Assembly (NCBI GenBank): GCA_016219445.1
Contig: JACRNA010000030.1
Location: forward strand, 1-36,933
DNA from: Candidatus Amesbacteria bacterium
GTDB lineage: Bacteria > Patescibacteriota > Microgenomatia > CAZETR01 > Amesbacteraceae
Direction of reading: 5' to 3'
Length of the DNA stretch: 36,933 bases
Position 1 is the first letter of the stretch. The number at the start of each line of letters is the position of its first letter. The notes below the pieces were generated by a model. That model ran no database searches and was not told where the DNA came from. It saw nothing but the letters and a program-made list of their open reading frames with translations. Positions 2,149 to 11,500 of the stretch are shown here, piece after piece. A program made the translations under genes and the position numbers.

Positions 2149-3134
2149 AGTGATTTGTAGACCGTTAAAGTTTCTTTGGCTGTTTTATCCCATGTAAAAT
2201 TATTCATAGTGGGTGATTTGTGTTTCATAGAAGTAATTATAGCTTGTGACATAGCTTTTACATCGTATGGATCAAAATAGACCGCGCTATCCCCCAGTAT
2301 TTCAGGAAGTGATCCATGATTGCTGGAAGCAACTGGCGTCCCACAAGCCAGAGCTTCTAGAGGATTTAAGCCAAAGCCTTCGGAAAACGATGCTTGGCAA
2401 TATACTGATGCCAAATTATATATATCTACCAGATCTTCATCGGACACGAAACCCAGTCTAAGAGGATAGACTAAGTCTAAGGATTTTAAATGACAAAGCT
2501 CGGGATGATCCAAATCCATCGTTTCGATTTCCTTGGCTTGGCGGCCAACCATTACTAGTGAAAGTTTGGCAAGTTTGCAGGCTTCAATTAGACCTGGAAT
2601 ATTTTTGTTGTAATTGACATCACCTACATATAAAACGAACTCTTTGGGAAGATTGTATTTTTTGGTAACTTTCTTGGGCTTGAATATTTCGTCAGCAGCT
2701 AAATAAACGAGCTTTAATTTTTCGTGGGGAATGTTTAAATACTTTCGGATATTTTTGAGTGAATAAAACGAATCCGTAATTACAGCGTCTACAGTTTGCA
2801 AGGCCAGGCCTTGCAAGAATAAATTCAGTTTGGCCTTCAGGCCTTGTTTGTAAACTTCCTGAAATTCCAGAGGAATGACGTCGTGGAGGGTCACGACAGT
2901 TTTAGATTTTCTAAACAACGGAAGCGTATGATAAAACAAATCAAAATATGGGTAGTGGACAATTTCCAATTTACAATTTTCAATTTCCAATGAATTTTCA
3001 ATTTCACAAATTTCAATACCATATTCATGTGAATATTCTTTGAGCTTTGGCAGGAGGCGCTTGGCATAGAAACCTACTCCCCTCTGGGCATTGCCGTCCG
3101 TAAGTGATTTGGTAACAAAGCCGACTTTAATCAT
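2139..3134 (-). CDS. GT4-family glycosyltransferase (GT-B fold)
   Basis: The frame is open up to 3227, but ATG at 3134 was chosen because MIKVGFVTKSL is a normal GT-B N-terminus and overlaps the preceding stop by only a few bases. That gives 331 residues. The N-terminal acceptor domain holds RGVGFYAKRLL and HYPYFD. The C-terminal donor domain holds YVGDVNYNKN, then SEGFGLNPLEALACGTPV, the E-x7-E motif (Glu252/Glu260) that binds the nucleotide-sugar in GT4 enzymes. It probably adds a sugar from a nucleotide donor to a lipid-linked glycan in the cytoplasm. It overlaps the upstream GT2 by 8 bases and the downstream PIG-V-like gene by 10. The loop near residues 43-58 is encoded by a heptamer array (2960-2994), and LQGLALQ by a 21-base palindrome (2796-2816). 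Confidence 0.88.
   Translation of the reverse strand: MIKVGFVTKSLTDGNAQRGVGFYAKRLLPKLKEYSHEYGIEICEIENSLEIENCKLEIVHYPYFDLFYHTLPLFRKSKTVVTLHDVIPLEFQEVYKQGLKAKLNLFLQGLALQTVDAVITDSFYSLKNIRKYLNIPHEKLKLVYLAADEIFKPKKVTKKYNLPKEFVLYVGDVNYNKNIPGLIEACKLAKLSLVMVGRQAKEIETMDLDHPELCHLKSLDLVYPLRLGFVSDEDLVDIYNLASVYCQASFSEGFGLNPLEALACGTPVASSNHGSLPEILGDSAVYFDPYDVKAMSQAIITSMKHKSPTMNNFTWDKTAKETLTVYKSLCP
2796..2816. repeat. Perfect 21-base palindrome in GT4 CDS
   Basis: Arms TTGCAAGGCC and GGCCTTGCAA flank a single A. Two more GGCCTT copies follow just to the right, near 2832-2846. It encodes LQGLALQ. Confidence 0.65.
2960..2994. repeat. Degenerate heptamer array, unit CAATTTN (5 copies)
   Basis: Five consecutive 7-base units: CAATTTC, CAATTTA, CAATTTT, CAATTTC, CAATGAA. 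Less regular copies continue to about 3018. On the coding strand it produces the repetitive peptide EIENSLEIENCKLEI in a loop of the GT4 acceptor domain. Confidence 0.75.
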
Positions 3135-3924
3135 GAGCTGGATACTTGGTAACTTGCCAATATTTGATGTAAGCAATAGCAAAGCGAAGACCTGAAAAGA
3201 GAGCAAAAACAAAACCCGGAAAGCCATCTACATAGCCACGGTGGCGAAAATATATCATCAAAAATGTTGATAAAGGCTTGAGAAAGAGATAGTGAAGAGC
3301 TGGTATTAGACCTAATTTTTCTTTTTGTTCCTGCATTTGCTCGGCCATCAAACTGGTATACTTATTATTGCGGACGAGATAATTTTCAAAGTCCGGTGTG
3401 CCGTAATGCAACATGGGATTTTTCAGATACCTTACTTCTCCCTCGATAATTGCTTGCTCGTGCACGTCACGTGCTTCCAAATTACCTTTGCCATTTCTAT
3501 ATAAACGCATGGTGTAATCAGGATATTGCCCGCCTTTTTCCAAAAATCTTCCCAAAAAATAGTTTTTGCGCGGAATCCAATATCCATTCACCTTCGCGGA
3601 GTCCAATCGGCCACCTCGGAGGTGGTCTTTAATTTCATTGACCAACTCAGGGGTTAAGCATTCGTCGGCATCCAGTTGGAGAATCCACTCGCCACGGGCA
3701 GAATCTATGGCTAACTTTTTCTGAGCATGAAAGTGAGTGGGATTATTGTCGACCAATATAATCTTGGCTTTATATTTTTTGGCGATTTTGACAGTATCGT
3801 CTGTGGACTTGCCATCCACAATTATTATTTCATCTGCAAAATCTTTAACTGCATCCAAACATCTGGCGATATTTCTCTCTTCATTGTAGGTAGCAAGGAC
3901 TACAGACAGTTTAATTTTAATCAT
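3127..3924 (-). CDS. GT2 glycosyltransferase, WaaE/KdtX-like
   Basis: A 265-residue GT-A enzyme: LSVVLATYNEERNI at the N-terminus, IVDGKSTDDT (residues 35-44), LQLDADE (82-88, the metal-binding DxD) and a C-terminal LPRKN-type acceptor region (IPRKNYFLGRFLEKG, then RLYR and VHEQ). This order matches the group containing the LPS-core beta-glucosyltransferase WaaE and similar bacterial GT2s. The C-terminus (RHRGYVDGFPGFVFAL) has membrane-associated helices. It probably makes a lipid-linked glycan on the cytoplasmic face. It is the first gene after the intergenic stretch carrying the first DUF3800-associated RNA, and overlaps the next gene by 8 bases. Compared with the paralogue at 20403 it has a short extra segment around DHLRGGR, encoded by the palindrome at 3611-3625. 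Confidence 0.88.
   Translation of the reverse strand: MIKIKLSVVLATYNEERNIARCLDAVKDFADEIIIVDGKSTDDTVKIAKKYKAKIILVDNNPTHFHAQKKLAIDSARGEWILQLDADECLTPELVNEIKDHLRGGRLDSAKVNGYWIPRKNYFLGRFLEKGGQYPDYTMRLYRNGKGNLEARDVHEQAIIEGEVRYLKNPMLHYGTPDFENYLVRNNKYTSLMAEQMQEQKEKLGLIPALHYLFLKPLSTFLMIYFRHRGYVDGFPGFVFALFSGLRFAIAYIKYWQVTKYPAHD
3611..3625. repeat. Perfect palindrome in GT2 CDS
   Basis: Arms CCACCT and AGGTGG with a CGG centre. It encodes the LRGGR stretch, which looks inserted relative to the paralogous GT2 at 20403-21155. Confidence 0.6.
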
Positions 3925-4046
3925 GATTTATCTATTTTACTATTTATATTCAAGTAAATGACGATATTAGTATCTAATTTGGTAGTGAATATTTTTTGAA
4001 TTTCATTGATTTTTCTGCCAGTAGTGTCTATTGATATCTTTATACT
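3925..4046. other. A+T-rich intergenic stretch with no recognised gene
   Basis: This 122-base stretch lies between the GT2 start and the small-RNA promoter. No convincing ORF, hairpin or repeat was seen. It may hold the leftward promoter for the GT2 gene, for example TAAAAT-like boxes near 3930-3940, but no paired -35 is convincing. Confidence 0.5.
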
Positions 4047-4075
4047 TTGCATAATTTCTTATTTACTGATATACT
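4047..4075 (+). promoter_or_regulatory. Sigma70-type promoter of DUF3800-associated RNA 1
   Basis: TTGCAT (4047-4052), a 17-base spacer and TATACT (4070-4075) on the + strand. Only one or two bases of each box differ from consensus. The predicted start is about 4082. It faces away from the surrounding leftward operon. Confidence 0.7.
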
Positions 4076-4081
4076 TATATC

Positions 4082-4166
4082 AAATCCAACCGAAAAGCTA
4101 ATCGTACAGGTGAGTTTTTTCGACTTGTCGAGAATAGGTTGTCCCCCCTCGAAAGAGGGGGTTTTT
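4082..4166 (+). ncRNA. DUF3800-associated small structured RNA, copy 1
   Basis: An RNA of about 85 nt is predicted between the promoter at 4047-4075 and the terminator at 4144-4166. Visible pairings: closing stem CAACC (4087-4091) with GGTTG (4137-4141); inner hairpin 4117-4134 with a CUUG-type tetraloop at 4124-4127; then the terminator hairpin with a GAAA loop. No ORF of useful length is present. The 3' end touches the stop codon of the convergent DUF3800 gene. Copy 2 at 7831-7925 has the same order of elements and shares the blocks ACC, AAA-(G)-GCT, CAGGT and GAG in the same order. Candidate structured RNAs called DUF3800 motifs are known near genes of this family from comparative genomics. 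Whether this RNA belongs to one of those classes is not tested here. Confidence 0.65.
4144..4166 (+). terminator. Intrinsic terminator of RNA 1
   Basis: A 7-bp stem CCCCCTC / GAGGGGG with a GAAA tetraloop is followed by five T. It is oriented on the + strand only; leftwards the hairpin is not followed by a T run. The T run overlaps two bases of the DUF3800 TAA codon (4165-4167). Confidence 0.88.
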
Positions 4167-4740
4167 ATACCTCATAAAGAACCCCCTTCTTGATAGCACG
4201 ATTAAAGATAGTCTTATATTCGATGCTCTCATTTTCTAAAACATCTCTAATAAACCCACATGAACTATCGGCAAACCTAATCATCGGATTATTTTCATCT
4301 TTTTTTACACCCTTAACCTTTTTTGTATGTATTCCAAGATGTCGTATCTGAGTACCGTAATATTTTTCATCTTTTTTACTTAATCCGTCTATATAAATAC
4401 TAAATACTTTTTTAGTATAATCAGGTAAAGTATTTATTGATTTAGCAATCGTAAGAATAGTTGAACTCTTATAATCTCTCGTATCAGTATAATGGGAATA
4501 ACAAATGCGCAAGCTCACATTTTTCTGATTAAATATCTCACCAATAAATGCTAATTTTTGTTTTATTCCTGATCTACCCCATTTTAACTTTCCCTTACCA
4601 CTGGAAATCTCAACCCTAGTCAACGCCTCAGATAATTTATCTTGCAATTCGGCAGTAATTATTACTGAAACAACAAATATTTTACCACTTGTATCTTGTC
4701 CTGTTTCGTCGACATAACAATATATTTTTTTAGATAGCAT
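4165..4740 (-). CDS. DUF3800 protein (predicted RNase H-like fold), copy A
   Basis: 191 residues. The N-terminus KIYCYVDETGQDTSG carries the family hallmark DE (Asp11, Glu12). IYIDG follows at 115-119 (Asp118), and PMIRFADSSCG near 152-162 (Asp158). These acidic residues, spread over beta strands, fit the RNase H-like fold assigned to DUF3800 (Pfam PF12686); function is unproven, but a metal-dependent nuclease is a reasonable inference. The start lies 7 bases after the stop of the upstream GT-C gene with no clear ribosome binding site, so it is probably translated from the operon mRNA. Its 3' end is tail-to-tail with small RNA 1. Copy B (7927-8475) is clearly related but strongly diverged. 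It is out of place in a glycan locus and may be a mobile or selfish unit. Confidence 0.88.
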   Translation of the reverse strand: MLSKKIYCYVDETGQDTSGKIFVVSVIITAELQDKLSEALTRVEISSGKGKLKWGRSGIKQKLAFIGEIFNQKNVSLRICYSHYTDTRDYKSSTILTIAKSINTLPDYTKKVFSIYIDGLSKKDEKYYGTQIRHLGIHTKKVKGVKKDENNPMIRFADSSCGFIRDVLENESIEYKTIFNRAIKKGVLYEV

Positions 4741-4747
4741 AATAAAT

Positions 4748-6349
4748 TTAATTTGATACTATTTTAAACGCAGGCAGGCCGTTTGGGAAATTAATGGTTT
4801 TGATGACATCTACCCCCAATTCTGGAATATCCTCAGGAGCCGCAACTATTAGTGCTGAATGCTGGTTGCGGACTTTGTCCCAGGGGGCAGATTCAAAATG
4901 ATATTTGTCATAATCGCGGACGGTGGAAAAATTGAATTTGTCTCGAAATGAGAGGGTGTGATTGCCTTGAAATTTACGTGGATCGTATTTGGAATAAAAC
5001 AAAAATAAAATATAGGGTTGGTCATATTTGTCGGTCACCCAAATCTTCGGATATTTATCCTTTACACTTTCTGTGTAGGCCACCAATTCTTTAAAACCAT
5101 ATTCCCAGGCAGCTGGATATTCTTTGGGATATCGGACATGATACTTGTATAAATAGTCTGAAATTTGAAATGCATATATGGCAACAATTAAAACTACAAA
5201 TAATTTCTTATATTTTATAACTTGATACATCCCTAGAGAGATAATAATAATCATTGGAATAACCATATTGAAGGCACGTAAGGCGTGGGGGGTCTGAAAG
5301 GTCATGGCGGAGGCAACTGGCGCAACCAAAAGCCATAACCAGATTATTCGATTTATGAATGATGAATTACGAATTAAGTACATTGCTCCAATAATAATAA
5401 ATATAAAATCGGTCAGATAAAAGAGGCCCATTTCGGGAACTTTACTGCGCTCGATGACATCACCGTTTACAAATAAGAAATTTCCATCAAAATGGTCCAA
5501 ATAATTTTGGATAAATCGTAGGCCATATTGGACAGGACGGTTGTGCAAGAGCTTGGAAGGAATTGATTTGAGATCTCCATGCTGAATACGCAATTCCTTG
5601 GCTCGCTCGGTCGGTCCAGAGTCAGCCAGTAATCCTACCCCGGACAGACGAGATTTGGCGTCGGTAGTGATAAGTGATAGTGATAGTGGAAGTAGTAATA
5701 ATACTAATAATAGCGCAGATAATAGAGATTGTTTGTAATTAACTCTGAAGTTTTTGAAAAACAAGATAAAAATTCCCAGTCCCAATAATGGGACAATGAC
5801 TCGGGAGGACTGATATGTGTAGATAGAGATTAGAAAATAGAGATTAGAGATTAGGAGATAATGTAGTTTTGGATCTTTTAACCATTTGATCAATAACCAC
5901 ATGCCAAGAACTATTAAAGTCGTTGAAACATTGACTTCCCAAGCACCACGGGAGAAATGAAGATGCCAGGGCGATACTGCGAGCAGTAGCGCCGCCAGTT
6001 GACCAGTTTGCCAGTTGATCAGTTCTTTAGTCAATAAATAAATTCCTAATACCCCCAATACCCCAAAGATTACAGAGGGCAGGCGGACGGCAAATTCAGT
6101 AAAACCGAAGACTTTTATAAAGGGAATCAGGATATAGGCATAACCTGCTGGTTTGAAATCGCCAAAAGATTCGAGATTCACTGGCCATGGGTGTCCATGT
6201 TCATCACGACCCGTCAACATTAGAGAATAGGCATTGTAGCCAAGTGCCGCCTCGTCAGCATTGAGTCCCGAAGGACTACTGGTGATATTCCAGATCCTCA
6301 GGACAGTCGCAAGACATAGGATTAATAATATAGGTATATATTTTTTCAT
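4748..6349 (-). CDS. GT-C membrane glycosyltransferase (GT39/ArnT/RgtA-like), paralogue 1
   Basis: 533 residues with an N-terminal helix, then NADEAALGYNAYSLMLTG with the Asp32-Glu33 pair in the first extracytoplasmic loop. This is the conserved acidic pair of PMT_2/ArnT-type GT-C enzymes. It continues with ESFGDFKPAGYAY and SPWHLHFSRGAWE, then about ten hydrophobic segments and a C-terminal soluble tail. It likely transfers a sugar from polyprenyl-phosphate to a surface glycan or protein. The same motifs recur in four neighbours (6346, 8472, 11497, 14284), so this is a tandem family. Its start overlaps the previous stop as ATGA. The DUF3800-A gene follows after 7 bases. It contains three degenerate tandem arrays (5353-5380, 5819-5860, 5991-6030). 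Confidence 0.85.
   Translation of the reverse strand: MKKYIPILLILCLATVLRIWNITSSPSGLNADEAALGYNAYSLMLTGRDEHGHPWPVNLESFGDFKPAGYAYILIPFIKVFGFTEFAVRLPSVIFGVLGVLGIYLLTKELINWQTGQLAALLLAVSPWHLHFSRGAWEVNVSTTLIVLGMWLLIKWLKDPKLHYLLISNLYFLISIYTYQSSRVIVPLLGLGIFILFFKNFRVNYKQSLLSALLLVLLLLPLSLSLITTDAKSRLSGVGLLADSGPTERAKELRIQHGDLKSIPSKLLHNRPVQYGLRFIQNYLDHFDGNFLFVNGDVIERSKVPEMGLFYLTDFIFIIIGAMYLIRNSSFINRIIWLWLLVAPVASAMTFQTPHALRAFNMVIPMIIIISLGMYQVIKYKKLFVVLIVAIYAFQISDYLYKYHVRYPKEYPAAWEYGFKELVAYTESVKDKYPKIWVTDKYDQPYILFLFYSKYDPRKFQGNHTLSFRDKFNFSTVRDYDKYHFESAPWDKVRNQHSALIVAAPEDIPELGVDVIKTINFPNGLPAFKIVSN
5353..5380. repeat. Degenerate heptamer array (4 copies)
   Basis: Units TTATGAA, TGATGAA, TTACGAA, TTAAGTA inside a GT-C gene. 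It encodes part of YLIRNSSFINRI. Confidence 0.6.
5819..5860. repeat. Degenerate heptamer array, unit GAGATTA (6 copies)
   Basis: Six consecutive 7-base units: three exact GAGATTA copies plus GTAGATA, GAAAATA and GGAGATA. It encodes a membrane segment with LLISNLYFLISIY. Confidence 0.8.
5991..6030. repeat. Degenerate octamer array, unit TTGACCAG (5 copies)
   Basis: Eight-base units GCCGCCAG, TTGACCAG, TTTGCCAG, TTGATCAG, TTCTTTAG. The unit resembles that of the array at 14012-14051 in a different gene. Confidence 0.7.
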
Positions 6350-7809
6350 TTTAGAGCCACGATGCGCAGAGCGTGCAAACCACTCGGATAATAAACCTCC
6401 CCAAGTCTAACTAAATTAACTGGATTCATATCTTGCTCGGGCAGCTCAAAGCTGTCTCCGACAAAAATTGTCAAGCTGTCTCCCCGTTGTGTCCGCCAAT
6501 CTACTTTCTGAAAAACAAATTTTTCAAAAGAAGGAACATATCCCACATCGCCATTTGCATTATCCACAAATTTGTTTTGAGATTGATATAGAATAGGATC
6601 AATCTTGTAATAAAATAGGGTATAAATATAAGGTTGACCAAGCTTGTCGGTAAATATTACACGATTGTAGTCTTTTAAATACGGTTCAATTATTTGAAGT
6701 GCTTCTTTGTATGGATAGAGCATGTCCTTTGCCGTAAAAAAGGGAGAGTGAATGAAATAAAGATCGACAAATAATATTAACGAGAGTAGAAGAGCTGGAG
6801 AGTAGAAGAATTTAAGTTTCGATAATCCGATCCCACTCATTATTACCAAAGGAATTAACATGGGCAGTGAGCGGACACCGGAGACGATGTCACGTGATAA
6901 CGCTGAAGGCAAGATTGCGAGCAGTAACCAGCCAATCAGCAGCTTAGCAGCTTGGTTATTGGCTCTAAGAAGAATTATCATTCCCATCAATATGGTGATT
7001 ATCTCCGGTAGATGAAAATATCCATAATAGGGAATACTGTGGCGGATATTGGACCAATCCCCGCTCATAAATAAATATTTGGGAGACAAGTGGTTTAGAT
7101 AACGCTGGGTAATTCCCCTGACAAGATCTCCAGAATAGCTAAAAACACTAAATACTTTGAGTCTTCCTGATTGTGAGCCAAAATTTAATATTAAGGGTAT
7201 TAACATTGCTAATCCTAATAGAACTGGCAAGATTAGTTTTTTGATATTTGGTCTATAAATTATGAGTAGGGTTAGTATTAAAAGCGGTGTAAACATCTTG
7301 GCTCCCTGATAGGTCCAGAAGGTCAGACCAAAAAACAGACTTGAATATAAATAGCGCCTTTTTATAAATAACAAAACTGCTAATGTAGTTAAAAATAAAG
7401 CAATGTTTGCCTCCCAAGCGCCACGGGAGAAGTGAATTGCCCAAGGGTTAATGGCAAGTAAGAGTGGTGCATATAAATTCTTAGTTAAAAGATACACTAC
7501 TAAAATCAAAAGTGTCCCAAGGATGGCCGACGGCAAGCGCGTGGCGAATTCATTTAAACCAAAAAACTTAACCGTTGGCACGGTAAAGTAGATATATAAT
7601 CCGGGTTTGTAATCACCAAACGATTTGAAGACAACCGGAAGTACTTTTCCATATTCATCTTTGCCGGTTTTCAAAAGTGAATAGGCGTTGTACCCCAGAG
7701 CCGCTTCATCCCAGGTAAATCCCACGGGGCGAGAGTCTAAGTAAAACAGTCTAAGGATAAGACCAAGTATCGTAATAAAAACAAGAATTATCAATCTTGA
7801 CATTTTCAT
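6346..7809 (-). CDS. GT-C membrane glycosyltransferase (GT39/ArnT/RgtA-like), paralogue 2
   Basis: The frame is open to 7836, but ATG at 7809 gives MKMSRLIILVF, which aligns with the starts of the paralogues; ATG at 7803 is also possible. With 7809 it has 487 residues. FTWDEAALGYNAYSLLKTG holds Asp34-Glu35, followed by KSFGDYKPG and INPWAIHFSRGAWE. Polytopic, with a C-terminal extracytoplasmic tail ending YYPSGLHALRIVALK. The role is inferred to be polyprenyl-phosphate-dependent sugar transfer outside the membrane. Its stop overlaps the next start as ATGA. The start region is overlapped by the -35 box of the opposing small-RNA promoter (7797-7824), so initiation of the two transcripts could interfere. 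Confidence 0.84.
   Translation of the reverse strand: MKMSRLIILVFITILGLILRLFYLDSRPVGFTWDEAALGYNAYSLLKTGKDEYGKVLPVVFKSFGDYKPGLYIYFTVPTVKFFGLNEFATRLPSAILGTLLILVVYLLTKNLYAPLLLAINPWAIHFSRGAWEANIALFLTTLAVLLFIKRRYLYSSLFFGLTFWTYQGAKMFTPLLILTLLIIYRPNIKKLILPVLLGLAMLIPLILNFGSQSGRLKVFSVFSYSGDLVRGITQRYLNHLSPKYLFMSGDWSNIRHSIPYYGYFHLPEIITILMGMIILLRANNQAAKLLIGWLLLAILPSALSRDIVSGVRSLPMLIPLVIMSGIGLSKLKFFYSPALLLSLILFVDLYFIHSPFFTAKDMLYPYKEALQIIEPYLKDYNRVIFTDKLGQPYIYTLFYYKIDPILYQSQNKFVDNANGDVGYVPSFEKFVFQKVDWRTQRGDSLTIFVGDSFELPEQDMNPVNLVRLGEVYYPSGLHALRIVALK
6782..6813. repeat. Two near-copies of a 16-base (2 x 8) unit
   Basis: GAGAGTAG AAGAGCTG is followed by GAGAGTAG AAGAATTT. It lies in the GT-C gene 6346-7809 and encodes a leucine/serine-rich membrane segment. 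Confidence 0.6.
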
Positions 7810-7824
7810 AAAAGCATATATAAT
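7797..7824 (+). promoter_or_regulatory. Perfect-consensus sigma70-type promoter of DUF3800-associated RNA 2
   Basis: TTGACA (7797-7802), a 16-base spacer and TATAAT (7819-7824), both exact consensus, on the + strand. Predicted start is about 7831. The -35 box lies over the first codons of the leftward GT-C gene. Confidence 0.85.
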
Positions 7825-7830
7825 AAAGAG

Positions 7831-7925
7831 TAACAAGTTACCAGGGACAAAGGCTCAGGTCGGCCGAGATCACAAATGAGTGATCTACTTGGATGACTGA
7901 CCCCGGTCGCAAGCCGGGGTTTTTT
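7831..7925 (+). ncRNA. DUF3800-associated small structured RNA, copy 2
   Basis: An RNA of about 95 nt is predicted between a consensus promoter and an intrinsic terminator. Visible structure: a possible small 5' hairpin GTAA/TTAC (7830-7841); closing stem CCAGG (7841-7845) with CTTGG (7888-7892, one G-U); an inner 7-bp hairpin AGATCAC / GTGATCT (7867-7886) with a 6-base loop; then the terminator. The element order matches copy 1, and ACC, AAAGGCT, CAGGT and GAG blocks recur in order. The sequence between the stems otherwise differs. It occupies essentially the whole gap between the DUF3800-B stop and the next gene, is antisense to the operon mRNA, and has no ORF. Function is unknown; partnership with the adjacent protein is inferred from repeated co-occurrence. 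Confidence 0.7.
7900..7925 (+). terminator. Intrinsic terminator of RNA 2
   Basis: Stem ACCCCGG / CCGGGGT with a 7-base loop, followed by a run of T that includes the last stem base (7920-7925). It ends one base before the DUF3800-B stop codon (7927-7929 on the - strand). There is no T run in the leftward direction. Confidence 0.88.
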
Positions 7926-7926
7926 A

Positions 7927-8475
7927 TTATATTGATGACTCATATATCAACTTTTCATTCAAAATCTTTTTAACTAAGATTGAAGTCTCTTCCATAGACG
8001 GGTTATCATAATAATACCTCATTAATCCCGCTAATCCATCGGCTACTCTTAATCCCGGAAAAGACCTATCGTTCCCCGTTCTGAGTTTTTTTACTGATAC
8101 TCCTCTTTTTCTAAGATTAACCTTTATTCTGGATGAATACCATTTAGGTTTTTTCCCATCAATGATGATGTGATTTATGTGCTTTTCTATTACAAAAGAT
8201 TGAATTATTGTCTCAAATTTTTGGGAAATATTTGAAGGATTAATTAATTTACATGATTTAAATTCGAATTCTAATTTAGATATTTTGTTAAGGAACTTTT
8301 TTCTATTCACCCATCTCTCGTCTGCCCAATGAAAATAATTAATCCCCATTTTCTTTTCAATTTCCAACACTTGGCTATTAAATCTTTCCGCATTCCTTAT
8401 TTGCAGATACACAAAAACCACACTTGTATGTCCTGATGTTTTGTCTATTCCAGATTCATCAATAAAAACAATCAT
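7927..8475 (-). CDS. DUF3800 protein (predicted RNase H-like fold), copy B
   Basis: 182 residues beginning MIVFIDESGIDKTSG, with the DUF3800 DE pair at Asp6-Glu7. HIIIDGKKP follows around 102-110 (Asp106), then RTGNDRSFPGLRVADGLAGL (Asp146). Spacing of the acidic residues parallels copy A (11/12, 118, 158 there). Basic stretches such as SRIKVNLRKRG could bind nucleic acid. The ATG overlaps the stop of the upstream GT-C gene as ATGA, so translation is probably coupled to it. Downstream is the convergent small RNA 2. Known family members are uncharacterised; the nuclease activity is inference. Overall similarity to copy A is low outside the motifs, so this is not a recent local duplication. Confidence 0.88.
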   Translation of the reverse strand: MIVFIDESGIDKTSGHTSVVFVYLQIRNAERFNSQVLEIEKKMGINYFHWADERWVNRKKFLNKISKLEFEFKSCKLINPSNISQKFETIIQSFVIEKHINHIIIDGKKPKWYSSRIKVNLRKRGVSVKKLRTGNDRSFPGLRVADGLAGLMRYYYDNPSMEETSILVKKILNEKLIYESSI

Positions 8476-9968
8476 GATTCTTTAATTATAAAGGCGGGTT
8501 TGCCGTCGAGGAAATTAATTCTTTTGATTTCGGTTCCGGTAGGTTCGTTTTCCGGACTGGCGATAATTAGAGTCTTGGGTTTGTAGACATAGGACTTCAT
8601 CTCCCAATCATTTATAAATTTAATTTTTCCAAGTGCATTTACCCAATACCAGCCGTCATGATAATCCCATGACTTACTTTTAGTAAAATCTGCCGGATCC
8701 CACGGCCAATAAAAAGCTACAAATTCATGGGGTTCACCATATTTCTTTGTAAATACGACCTTGTCATATCTAGAATAGCTCTCTTTAATTATTTGAACTA
8801 TTTCTTTATAGCCATATTGCCAGGACCAGGAATAGCTTAGGAGATAGGAGTTAGAAGCTCGTTGATAATTTATTGAAAATAATATAAATATCGGCAATAT
8901 TACTAAATAATATTTTTTTAATATAGATACAATTCCCAATGCTGTGAGTATCATAGGTAATGGAAGCATTACGACCGCACGAAGCGTATGGGGACTATCA
9001 CGCGTGACGCTACCAGCAATTGGTGCAAGTAATAACCATATTAACAATAAATTTTTAATTTTTAATTTATGATTTTTAATCAAATTCAAAATTCCAATAT
9101 AAAAAAATGGGGCACAAACCAAATACAGTAAACCGTAATTTTGGACGCTGAATTGATAGTGATCGCCACCTTTAAAAAACAGAAAGTTTGGTAATAAATA
9201 AGAAATATAATTTTTGGCAAAGGTGGCAACAAAATAAGTAGCTTTGTTGTAAACCAAGCGACCACCCCATTGTGAAGTCTGTAGTTCATTAATCTTAGCT
9301 ATTGCACCATCATCTATAAGTGATAATTTTTGATATCGTGCCTGACCAATAGTACTCAGTAGTTGAATCAACATAGGTAAAAATAACAAACCAACAAGAA
9401 CTAAAGTCTTTTTGTCTAATTTAAATCGGTAAACCAACCAATTGCCAACTAAAAACAATGGTACGAATATACGAGCACTATTGTAAGTCCAGACCGAGAT
9501 TCCAAAAAACAAGATTGACCAAAGATATTTCCTGGAAACCAGACAGAGCATTCCCAGGGATATAAACAAAATGGCTAGATTGGCCTCGAGTGCTAATCTG
9601 GAAAGCATGACTGTCCAAGGGGACAAAGCTACAAGTGACAAAGTAACAAGACCAGCTTGTTTTCCAAATAATTTTCTTGCCAATAAATATGAAATAAGCA
9701 TTGTCAGCGATCCAGCAATAATTGATGTAACACGAGGGTTAAGTGGCCAGAGTGTGGTCATATAAACATAAACAGGAAGCTTGTAATCTCCGAATCCTCG
9801 AAATATGGTAGGAAGCTTTGTCCCCCATTCATCGGCACCTGTTCTGGATATCGAATAAGCATTGTATCCGAGGGAAACTTCATCCCAATTTAAGCTTGTT
9901 GGTGCAAAATAAGGCAGTCGCCAAATAATGCCGATGAATAAAATTAATATAACTAGGATTTTTTCCAT
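8472..9968 (-). CDS. GT-C membrane glycosyltransferase (GT39/ArnT/RgtA-like), paralogue 3
   Basis: ATG at 9968 (MEKILVILIL) was chosen over an in-frame TTG at 9974; this gives 498 residues. LNWDEVSLGYNAYSISRTG contains Asp29-Glu30, followed by FRGFGDYKLPVYVY and SPWTVMLSRLALEAN. It has multiple hydrophobic segments and a soluble tail ending FLDGKPAFIIKES. It belongs to the same tandem family as 4748, 6346, 11497 and 14284. The predicted role is transfer of a lipid-phosphate-activated sugar outside the membrane. It overlaps the upstream PTPS-related gene by 16 bases and the DUF3800-B gene by 4. Three degenerate tandem arrays lie inside (8834-8861, 9050-9091, 9623-9654), which is more than in most neighbours. 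Confidence 0.84.
   Translation of the reverse strand: MEKILVILILFIGIIWRLPYFAPTSLNWDEVSLGYNAYSISRTGADEWGTKLPTIFRGFGDYKLPVYVYMTTLWPLNPRVTSIIAGSLTMLISYLLARKLFGKQAGLVTLSLVALSPWTVMLSRLALEANLAILFISLGMLCLVSRKYLWSILFFGISVWTYNSARIFVPLFLVGNWLVYRFKLDKKTLVLVGLLFLPMLIQLLSTIGQARYQKLSLIDDGAIAKINELQTSQWGGRLVYNKATYFVATFAKNYISYLLPNFLFFKGGDHYQFSVQNYGLLYLVCAPFFYIGILNLIKNHKLKIKNLLLIWLLLAPIAGSVTRDSPHTLRAVVMLPLPMILTALGIVSILKKYYLVILPIFILFSINYQRASNSYLLSYSWSWQYGYKEIVQIIKESYSRYDKVVFTKKYGEPHEFVAFYWPWDPADFTKSKSWDYHDGWYWVNALGKIKFINDWEMKSYVYKPKTLIIASPENEPTGTEIKRINFLDGKPAFIIKES
8834..8861. repeat. Degenerate heptamer array (4 copies)
   Basis: Units AGCTTAG, GAGATAG, GAGTTAG, AAGCTCG in a GT-C gene. It encodes part of RASNSYLLSYS. 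Confidence 0.6.
9050..9091. repeat. Degenerate heptamer array, unit AATTTTT (about 6 copies)
   Basis: Units AATTTTT (twice), AATTTAT, GATTTTT, then decaying copies. It encodes the lysine/asparagine-rich loop NLIKNHKLKIKN between membrane helices. Confidence 0.65.
9623..9654. repeat. Degenerate octamer array (4 copies)
   Basis: Units ACAAAGCT, ACAAGTGA, CAAAGTAA, CAAGACCA. Sequence flavour resembles the heptamer array at 14747-14781. It encodes GLVTLSLVAL. Confidence 0.5.
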
Positions 9969-11500
9969 ATCCAAATTATTAAACTCAATAACGTAATAAG
10001 ACTGACAATGTTACCAATCTTTCTGACTGGAGTATCTTCAAAAGATAATTTTATATTTGATTTTAATGGTGCACGGACGGTCACCAATCCCAAATCTCCA
10101 CTCGAAAATACCGGAAGTAATTGATTGTTTGAGCGGGCTATCCACCCCGGAAAATAGACTGTCGGATAGCGGATTTTTTGGTAACTATCGGTTTCCAATA
10201 TTACTTCTGGCGAGTTTGGCGCAAATGAATTTGGAAGCTTGGCCGACTTTGGCCAAAAGTCGGACAAAGCAGAGCTCCTCTGCTCGTCCCACAATCTTCC
10301 GCCAAATTGTTCTGTGTCTGTAATATTTCTCCAAATATCCGGACGAAAGTTTCCACTATAAAATAGTAGTCCCGCTACCAGCAATATTGTCCAAACCCAT
10401 TTTGGAATTAATTTTGTTATTGCTCCCGTTGCAAGCGACAAAAATAACGTAGACATGGTCAGAAAACGCCAGGGAAATTGGATATAAGCCATAGGCTTGA
10501 CAATATTCCAAATTAGATCAGATTTTCCGTGTGTTAAAAAAATAGCCAGAAAACCAAGAAACACAAAAAATAAAACTTCTTTATTTCTCTTTTTTATCAA
10601 TACATATATGACTAATACAACTGCCAATATCCAGTGCATTTGACCCACAGCAAAGCTCATGGTGTCGTTTGGTCCCCAAGTGGATCCTCCAAATCCCCAA
10701 AAGGTGGACAAAAATAATTGCTTGAGTGTCGCATAATGGATATGAAAATCATAATAACCGGAAGTTGTCTGATTTAGTGTTACTAGACTGCTTTCAAATA
10801 ATACCGGTAATAAATAAAATGCAGAAAGCAAAATACTGGCCAAACCAGCGCTAATCAAGTCGTAAATAATATGAATAGATTTAGTCGATCGAAGCCACCA
10901 ATACACCCCCCAAATTATTCCAAACGGAATAAAAATAAAAAGTGATAAATTGTGTGTCAGTGTCAGACTAGCTAGTGATAATATTAGCCAAAATAAATAT
11001 TTATTCTTATTTGTAATTATAAATTCTTTGATAAATAAAAGTATCAGAGGGAAAAAGACAAAAGCCAGTGATTCAGGTAAAGCCCCACGCACCCAGACGT
11101 CGACTGCACGGTATGGTGCATAGGCATAGAATAGAGCCGAGACAAGAGATCCGGTATTTGACCAGAATTTTCGTGCCAGAAAATACATCGCTATCGATGA
11201 AGCAAGAATTGTCAAAATAAAATTGGCTTTAACTGAATCTAAAACCGACAACTTCATAATTCTAAATATCCCCCCTATCCAATAAGGAAATTGACCATAA
11301 AAATTAAAGACCGGCTCTCCATATCCGAGACCAGCGTCAGGGAACCAACGGCAAGGAAAGCTCTGGGTCTGTATTAGACATTTTTCAAATTGTTGCTGAC
11401 GAAAGACATGAAAATCATGCATTGTATAGATGCCAGAGCGAAGCATCAATCCAAATGTCGGGATCAAGAGCAAAGTAAAGATTAAGATATATTTCTTCAT
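9953..11500 (-). CDS. PTPS-related (PF10131-type) polytopic membrane protein, copy 1
   Basis: 515 residues. The first loop reads MHDFHVFR (27-34), PCRWFPD (49-55) and GEPVFNFYG (61-69). The second copy in this window (25895-27526) has matching motifs at identical positions. This is the pattern of the '6-pyruvoyl-tetrahydropterin synthase related, membrane' family, whose name is historical and does not imply pterin chemistry. The architecture is GT-C-like: many helices, then a C-terminal beta-rich extracytoplasmic domain with VYFPGW. It is probably a membrane GT or carrier-linked sugar-modifying protein; true activity unknown. ATGA overlap with the upstream GT-C. A double hairpin at 10243-10284 falls in the sequence encoding the C-terminal domain. 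Confidence 0.75.
   Translation of the reverse strand: MKKYILIFTLLLIPTFGLMLRSGIYTMHDFHVFRQQQFEKCLIQTQSFPCRWFPDAGLGYGEPVFNFYGQFPYWIGGIFRIMKLSVLDSVKANFILTILASSIAMYFLARKFWSNTGSLVSALFYAYAPYRAVDVWVRGALPESLAFVFFPLILLFIKEFIITNKNKYLFWLILSLASLTLTHNLSLFIFIPFGIIWGVYWWLRSTKSIHIIYDLISAGLASILLSAFYLLPVLFESSLVTLNQTTSGYYDFHIHYATLKQLFLSTFWGFGGSTWGPNDTMSFAVGQMHWILAVVLVIYVLIKKRNKEVLFFVFLGFLAIFLTHGKSDLIWNIVKPMAYIQFPWRFLTMSTLFLSLATGAITKLIPKWVWTILLVAGLLFYSGNFRPDIWRNITDTEQFGGRLWDEQRSSALSDFWPKSAKLPNSFAPNSPEVILETDSYQKIRYPTVYFPGWIARSNNQLLPVFSSGDLGLVTVRAPLKSNIKLSFEDTPVRKIGNIVSLITLLSLIIWIWKKS
10243..10263. repeat. Inverted repeat inside CDS, hairpin 1 of a pair
   Basis: Perfect 8-base arms CCGACTTT / AAAGTCGG with a 5-base centre. 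A second hairpin follows after 4 bases (10268-10284). Confidence 0.6.
10268..10284. repeat. Inverted repeat inside CDS, hairpin 2 of a pair
   Basis: Perfect 7-base arms AGCAGAG / CTCTGCT with a 3-base centre. Together with 10243-10263 it encodes QRSSALSDFWPKSA. Confidence 0.6.

Follow-up and report, generated by a model that had tools for sequence, protein, structure and literature searches.

The window, that is the whole stretch of DNA that was analysed, comprises 36,933 nt and is one whole contig of a draft genome (810 kb, 47 contigs) of Candidatus Amesbacteria. It contains two units, A and B, each made up of a gene for a DUF3800 protein and a gene for a small structured RNA:

3925 to 4747, no strand assigned: insertion of unit A, bounded by a GT stop (4748) and the start of the next gene (3924)
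4046 to 4075, plus strand: sigma70-like promoter of RNA1, TTTGCA-18-TATACT, 9/12, weak
about 4080 to 4162, plus strand: RNA1, structured RNA, core 4083-4146, helices P1-P2-P3 and then the terminator
4144 to 4161, plus strand: intrinsic terminator stem of RNA1, with a T run that extends into the DUF3800 A stop codon
4165 to 4740, minus strand: DUF3800 protein A, 191 aa, PF12686 with 25.5 bits, modelled with AlphaFold2 and compared with Foldseek
7804 to 8475, no strand assigned: insertion of unit B, bounded by the stop of the 8472-9974 gene and the next start (~7803)
7797 to 7824, plus strand: promoter of RNA2, TTGACA-16-TATAAT, 12/12
7830 to 7902, plus strand: RNA2, matched as a DUF3800-II RNA (Rfam RF02961), cmscan 61.5 bits
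7899 to 7921, plus strand: intrinsic terminator of RNA2
7927 to 8475, minus strand: DUF3800 protein B, 182 aa, PF12686 with 33.4 bits

An earlier note on this DNA had proposed two DUF3800 genes, and we found open reading frames at both places with scores above the Pfam gathering cut-off for DUF3800 (21 bits). The two proteins are 26% identical to each other, and the start codon of protein B overlaps the stop codon of the gene upstream (ATGA). The note had further described each RNA as lying tail-to-tail with its DUF3800 gene, with a promoter of its own and a terminator whose T run reaches the DUF3800 stop codon. Both RNAs are indeed on the plus strand and both protein genes on the minus strand, and the T run reaches the stop codon at both units. 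The promoter was confirmed in full for RNA2, while the one assigned to RNA1 is recognisable but weak. Folded together with their terminators both RNAs were more stable than dinucleotide shuffles (z of −3.3 to −4.1); for RNA2 without the terminator z was only −2.0. The −35 box of the RNA2 promoter (7797-7803) falls inside the opening codons of the adjacent gene (start ATG at ~7803), and through these shared bases the promoter and the N-terminus of that gene constrain each other.

The two units were also said to sit between glycosyltransferase (GT) genes to which they have no obvious functional link. The lack of a link stands. The naming of the neighbours was borne out for 4748-6349 and 3127-3924, which have a glycosyltransferase match in Pfam, but not for 6346-7836 and 8472-9974, which have no such match at E 1e-5 and are GT-like solely through their similarity to other members of the cluster. 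The 3' ends of the genes preceding the units (window 4748 and 8472) encode similar INF..G.PAF tails, and this tail differs in the gene between the two units; a site preference is possible, or chance.

The earlier note had suggested a scan of both RNAs against Rfam, and the outcome was split. RNA2 passed the gathering score of RF02961 (43.2 bits), the consensus of which reads P1, GGACAAA, P2, AAG, P3, CUA, P1'. Judged by this match, unit B is a direct member of DUF3800-II and hence of an already known kind. RNA1 matched none of the families in Rfam 15, including RF02961, at E values up to 10 on the short stretch. The DUF3800 RNA motifs were reportedly first described in a 2017 NAR paper. The known kind is a DUF3800 gene with a structured RNA, catalogued in Rfam with no function assigned, and unit A adds an RNA family that is widespread and uncatalogued.

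We gathered relatives of protein A from 287 genomes of the phylum, 14 of which were positive, and from the GTDB contig collection, which gave 97 loci of which 80 were kept; several loci sit in both collections, so the two sets of counts are not fully independent. Scans of the RNA1 relatives against Rfam (gathering scores and E up to 1) returned only tRNAs, one separate DUF3800-II match in locus L025 and sub-threshold unrelated families. We rejected the idea that RNA1 is a diverged DUF3800-II RNA or a member of another Rfam family, as the Rfam scans gave no match at any useful score.

RNA1 belongs to a real and widespread RNA family outside the Rfam catalogue. The models R1 and R2 describe an RNA with covarying helices P1-P2-P3, and R2, which was built without RNA1, recovered RNA1 out of sample with 33.4 bits (E 3.8e-7). 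Model R1 does not match RNA2. In the consensus, P1 (~5 pairs, covarying) is followed by the joining segment GAAuAC. Next come the P2 hairpin, which has a GUAU-type loop and is interrupted by an internal loop, P3, the strand (A/C)UAG leading into P1', and the terminator. The variable part of the RNA is the P3 hairpin, which differs in length between copies. Across 81 aligned copies 87% of the paired cells were standard compared to 73% in shuffles, 167 cells had both sides changed compared to 52, and the covariation score was 0.48 compared to 0.22 (slid controls ≤0.17), in an alignment that was fitted to the structure and therefore favours it. A plain MAFFT alignment of the relatives showed covariation in four of the five pairs of P1. 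A second subtype, with the joining segment GAAGGCC, is built of the same three helices, in which nine pairs covary. The earlier note had offered to give up its proposal if RNA conservation and covariation were missing beside homologous DUF3800 genes; the search found the RNA conserved and the covariation strong. The layout P1-P2-P3-UA-P1' is common to both subtypes and to DUF3800-II. RNA1 and DUF3800-II also share the partner family, the convergent position and the presence of an own terminator, and differ in the joining segment (GAA(u)AC in RNA1, GGACAAA in DUF3800-II) and in the internal loop that breaks P2 of RNA1.

Several loci carry more than one copy of the new RNA. In Poribacteria we encountered tandem arrays of four copies (L070:3590-4208) and two copies (L057:3590-3762), each 3' of one DUF3800 gene; every copy stands between CAGAAGTAAA and TTTTCTG, and these two might form an outer stem. 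In Candidatus Andersenbacteria (L005:1437-2665) four RNAs of two subtypes surround one DUF3800 gene in a span of 1.3 kb, and part of this array is a segmental duplication. In a genome of the same class as the window (G327, L140) the RNA has the same sequence as in L042 from Candidatus Roizmanbacteria, which makes the Microgenomates the probable class of the window.

The pairing of RNA and protein is very regular. A convergent RNA was present opposite the DUF3800 stop codon in about 78 of the 80 GTDB loci: in 71 it was recognised by model or pattern, and in a further seven by eye; in the other two (L075 and L087) it is unclear or shortened. These loci come from Patescibacteria, Chloroflexota, Planctomycetota, Acidobacteriota, Poribacteria and others. 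A promoter of at least 9/12 preceded 63 of the 71 RNAs (9.6% of shuffles) and a terminator followed 57 of them (14% in shuffles). The distance from RNA core to DUF3800 stop had a median of 25 nt, and in almost every locus the 3' end of the RNA coincided with this stop. When we scanned the 287 genomes with a model built without RNA1, 11 were positive, and ten of these also belong to the 14 that have the protein (Fisher 1e-14, or 2e-9 after removal of the genomes that fed the model). The similarities of RNA and protein were correlated as well (Mantel rho 0.32, p 2e-4). Protein without RNA occurred in at most two of the 80 loci. In the phylum scan 7 of the 17 RNA matches had no adjacent DUF3800 partner of their own, though several of them lay beside a complete unit. 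Two solo copies have no DUF3800 gene within ~1.5 kb (G153:C10:33610-33686, L169; G291:C212:7043-7098, L127). Three of the four DUF3800-II genomes in the sample also hold a relative of protein A (Fisher 4e-4), and in G248:C36 (L014, L025) a DUF3800-II unit and a unit with the new RNA lie ~2 kb apart, like in the window.

It is extremely improbable that chance alone placed some ordinary small RNA next to a gene unrelated to it, as the presence of the two coincides across the genome scans and their orientation and spacing are constant across phyla; we regard this explanation as refuted by the scans. The convergent layout and the almost constant position of the RNA 3' end at the stop codon would also fit an RNA that regulates the DUF3800 gene through the 3' overlap, by antisense pairing or transcription collision and without forming an RNP. 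We consider this very unlikely. Complementarity between RNA and mRNA is limited to runs of 7-10 nt, which is chance level and led us to reject an antisense role. The folded core covaries and its sequence is conserved, neither of which antisense control needs, and the RNA is also found away from DUF3800 genes.

We then compared the two places in the window with related genomes. A genome of the same genus (G298) has a syntenic cluster with DNA that is about 75-81% identical and lacks both units: at the place of unit B the GT stop codon overlaps the next start, and at the place of unit A the two adjacent genes are one base apart. A genome from another genus (G305) is also empty at both places. 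Because both relatives lack the units at precisely these places, we read the units as clean two-gene insertions, and by parsimony both would have been gained in the lineage of the window. The inserted DNA consists of the DUF3800 gene and the RNA gene only, about 670 bp for B and about 820 bp for A, the latter with some 120 further bases following the RNA promoter. The earlier suggestion that protein and RNA are kept or moved together holds, and their joint movement in particular has direct support from the two empty sites.

The exact insertions at two places in a single lineage, the patchy distribution (14 of 287 genomes) and the tandem and dispersed RNA copies (L005, L006, L011, L057, L058 and L070) could indicate a selfish mobile element in which the nuclease mobilises itself and its RNA, like the RNPs of TnpB and IscB, with the solo RNAs as non-autonomous copies. 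We judge this to be distinctly unlikely. Compared by eye with the two empty sites, neither junction showed terminal repeats or target duplications, and membership of a transposable element was rejected on these grounds. The distance to the upstream gene ranged from −10 to 398 nt in the relatives, so there is no fixed end, and the copy numbers per genome are low. The upstream gene was co-directional with the DUF3800 gene in 56 of 70 relatives (binomial 4e-7), as it is in both units of the window. No family of neighbours recurred in more than two of the 90 genes around the relatives. A conserved third partner or a defence island was rejected as well, the only matches being single ones to Cas6, type I specificity and mads. 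The searches of phages, viral contigs and plasmids gave no match.

We modelled protein A with AlphaFold2 (mean pLDDT 94.8). The nearest solved fold in Foldseek was RNase HII (E 1e-6, TM-score about 0.5-0.6), and protein A is predicted with high confidence to have an RNase H fold closest to RNase HII. A search for solved structures by protein sequence found none. In an alignment of 63 sequences D11, E12, G14, Q15, D16, E44, K53, W54, D118 and R155 were invariant and D158 was near-invariant, so that the predicted fold is accompanied by the putative acidic active-site set of an RNase H-fold nuclease. The likeness to RNase HII (PF01351) extends to the acidic set DE..D..D. It lies in the fold alone: hhalign detected no sequence relation between the DUF3800 and RNase HII profiles (probability 0.5%) and homology at the sequence level was rejected, and RNase HII is a housekeeping repair enzyme without an RNA partner. 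For another DUF3800 protein, a published model likewise shows the RNase H fold, with its catalytic residues rearranged (PMC10910872). Given the conserved acidic residues, the RNase HII-like fold and this published model, DUF3800 is likely to be an active nuclease. RNase HII was not found in three genomes with DUF3800 units (G000, G050 and G183); other genomes hold both, so replacement is not implied.

The reading we prefer is that each unit would be a self-contained, horizontally acquired cassette of an RNase HII-like DUF3800 nuclease and a dedicated small structured RNA. The RNA would have its own promoter, on the opposite strand, end by the terminator at the stop codon of the nuclease gene, bind the DUF3800 protein as a ribonucleoprotein and keep the nuclease inactive. 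Loss of the RNA, e.g. through phage takeover or transcription arrest, would free the nuclease, which could then cut RNA or RNA/DNA hybrids. We give about an even chance to such an RNA-nuclease RNP cassette, acquired horizontally and following type III toxin-antitoxin-like or abortive-infection logic with the RNA as the presumed restraint. The RNA most likely inhibits the nuclease, given that the protein hardly ever occurs without the RNA whereas the RNA does occur alone. What counts against this argument is that solo RNAs and a similar picture would also be expected if the protein gene had simply decayed. The weak promoter of RNA1, the lack of enrichment of defence neighbours and the lack of carriage by the phages and plasmids searched also speak against a type III-like reading.

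Pairing, covariation and co-inheritance apply equally if the RNA were an activating cofactor or scaffold in a stable RNA-nuclease complex that, like an RNA-dependent enzyme, recognises a structural target, e.g. phage RNA or a hybrid, and cuts it. The conserved unpaired GAA-AC and UA segments resemble protein-contact sites, and DUF3800 proteins accompany a Cas12a2 branch and some type VI-F loci (PMC10910872, PMC12669027). We nevertheless think it unlikely. The solo RNAs would be purposeless, and it is this asymmetry between protein and RNA that led us to rank inhibition above activation. There is also no variable single-stranded stretch that could act as a guide, the variability being in the P3 hairpin, and the complementarity of the window RNAs to the flanks and empty sites did not exceed that of shuffles; an RNA-guided function was rejected for these two reasons. 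The OMEGA systems (IscB or TnpB with omega RNA) are similar to the DUF3800 units in that a nuclease of RNase H-type fold lies beside a structured RNA in a compact arrangement, whereas the DUF3800 units lack the guide segment and transposon ends and encode a far smaller protein.

For restraint by the RNA, the closest tested precedent for an RNA-controlled DUF3800 nuclease would, by analogy, be AbiF (Abi_2). The abiF RNA motif (RF03085) binds and neutralises its RNase in type III fashion (PMC12373285). In both cases an effector of RNase type has a structured RNA dedicated to it and catalogued in Rfam; both occur several times per genome and sometimes have repeated motifs. AbiF is a HEPN protein with the RNA upstream of its gene, in contrast to the RNase H fold of DUF3800, and we do not claim homology. 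In classical type III toxin-antitoxin systems the RNA is upstream of the toxin, co-transcribed with it and usually made of tandem repeats. The proposed logic, in which an RNA restrains an enzyme within an RNP, may be the same as in ToxIN and AvcID. The gene order is not: the DUF3800 RNA is convergent with its own promoter, there is no shared transcript and no tandem-repeat pseudoknot RNA upstream, and tandem copies occur in a few loci only.

A new RNA family is linked here, in a nearly one-to-one relation, to a clade of small DUF3800 proteins for which the model is confidently RNase HII-like, and the two exact empty sites show that protein and RNA together are the complete moving unit. We put forward tentatively, and if pressed would lean slightly against, the broader proposal that DUF3800-RNA cassettes are a new class of nuclease systems under RNA control, either type III TA-like or of the abortive-infection kind. 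These systems would have an RNase HII-like fold and two or more RNA families that share a single three-helix layout, would occur across Patescibacteria and Chloroflexota, and would spread between operon genes as insertions of just the two genes. With AbiF as precedent, about 700 bp of DNA suffice for a direct test of the function: if the preferred reading is true, the DUF3800 protein alone would be toxic and the RNA supplied in trans would relieve the toxicity. In that case an RNase H-fold effector would join the short list of proteins held by a dedicated RNA, and such an RNA-checked effector would occur in the reduced genomes of Patescibacteria.
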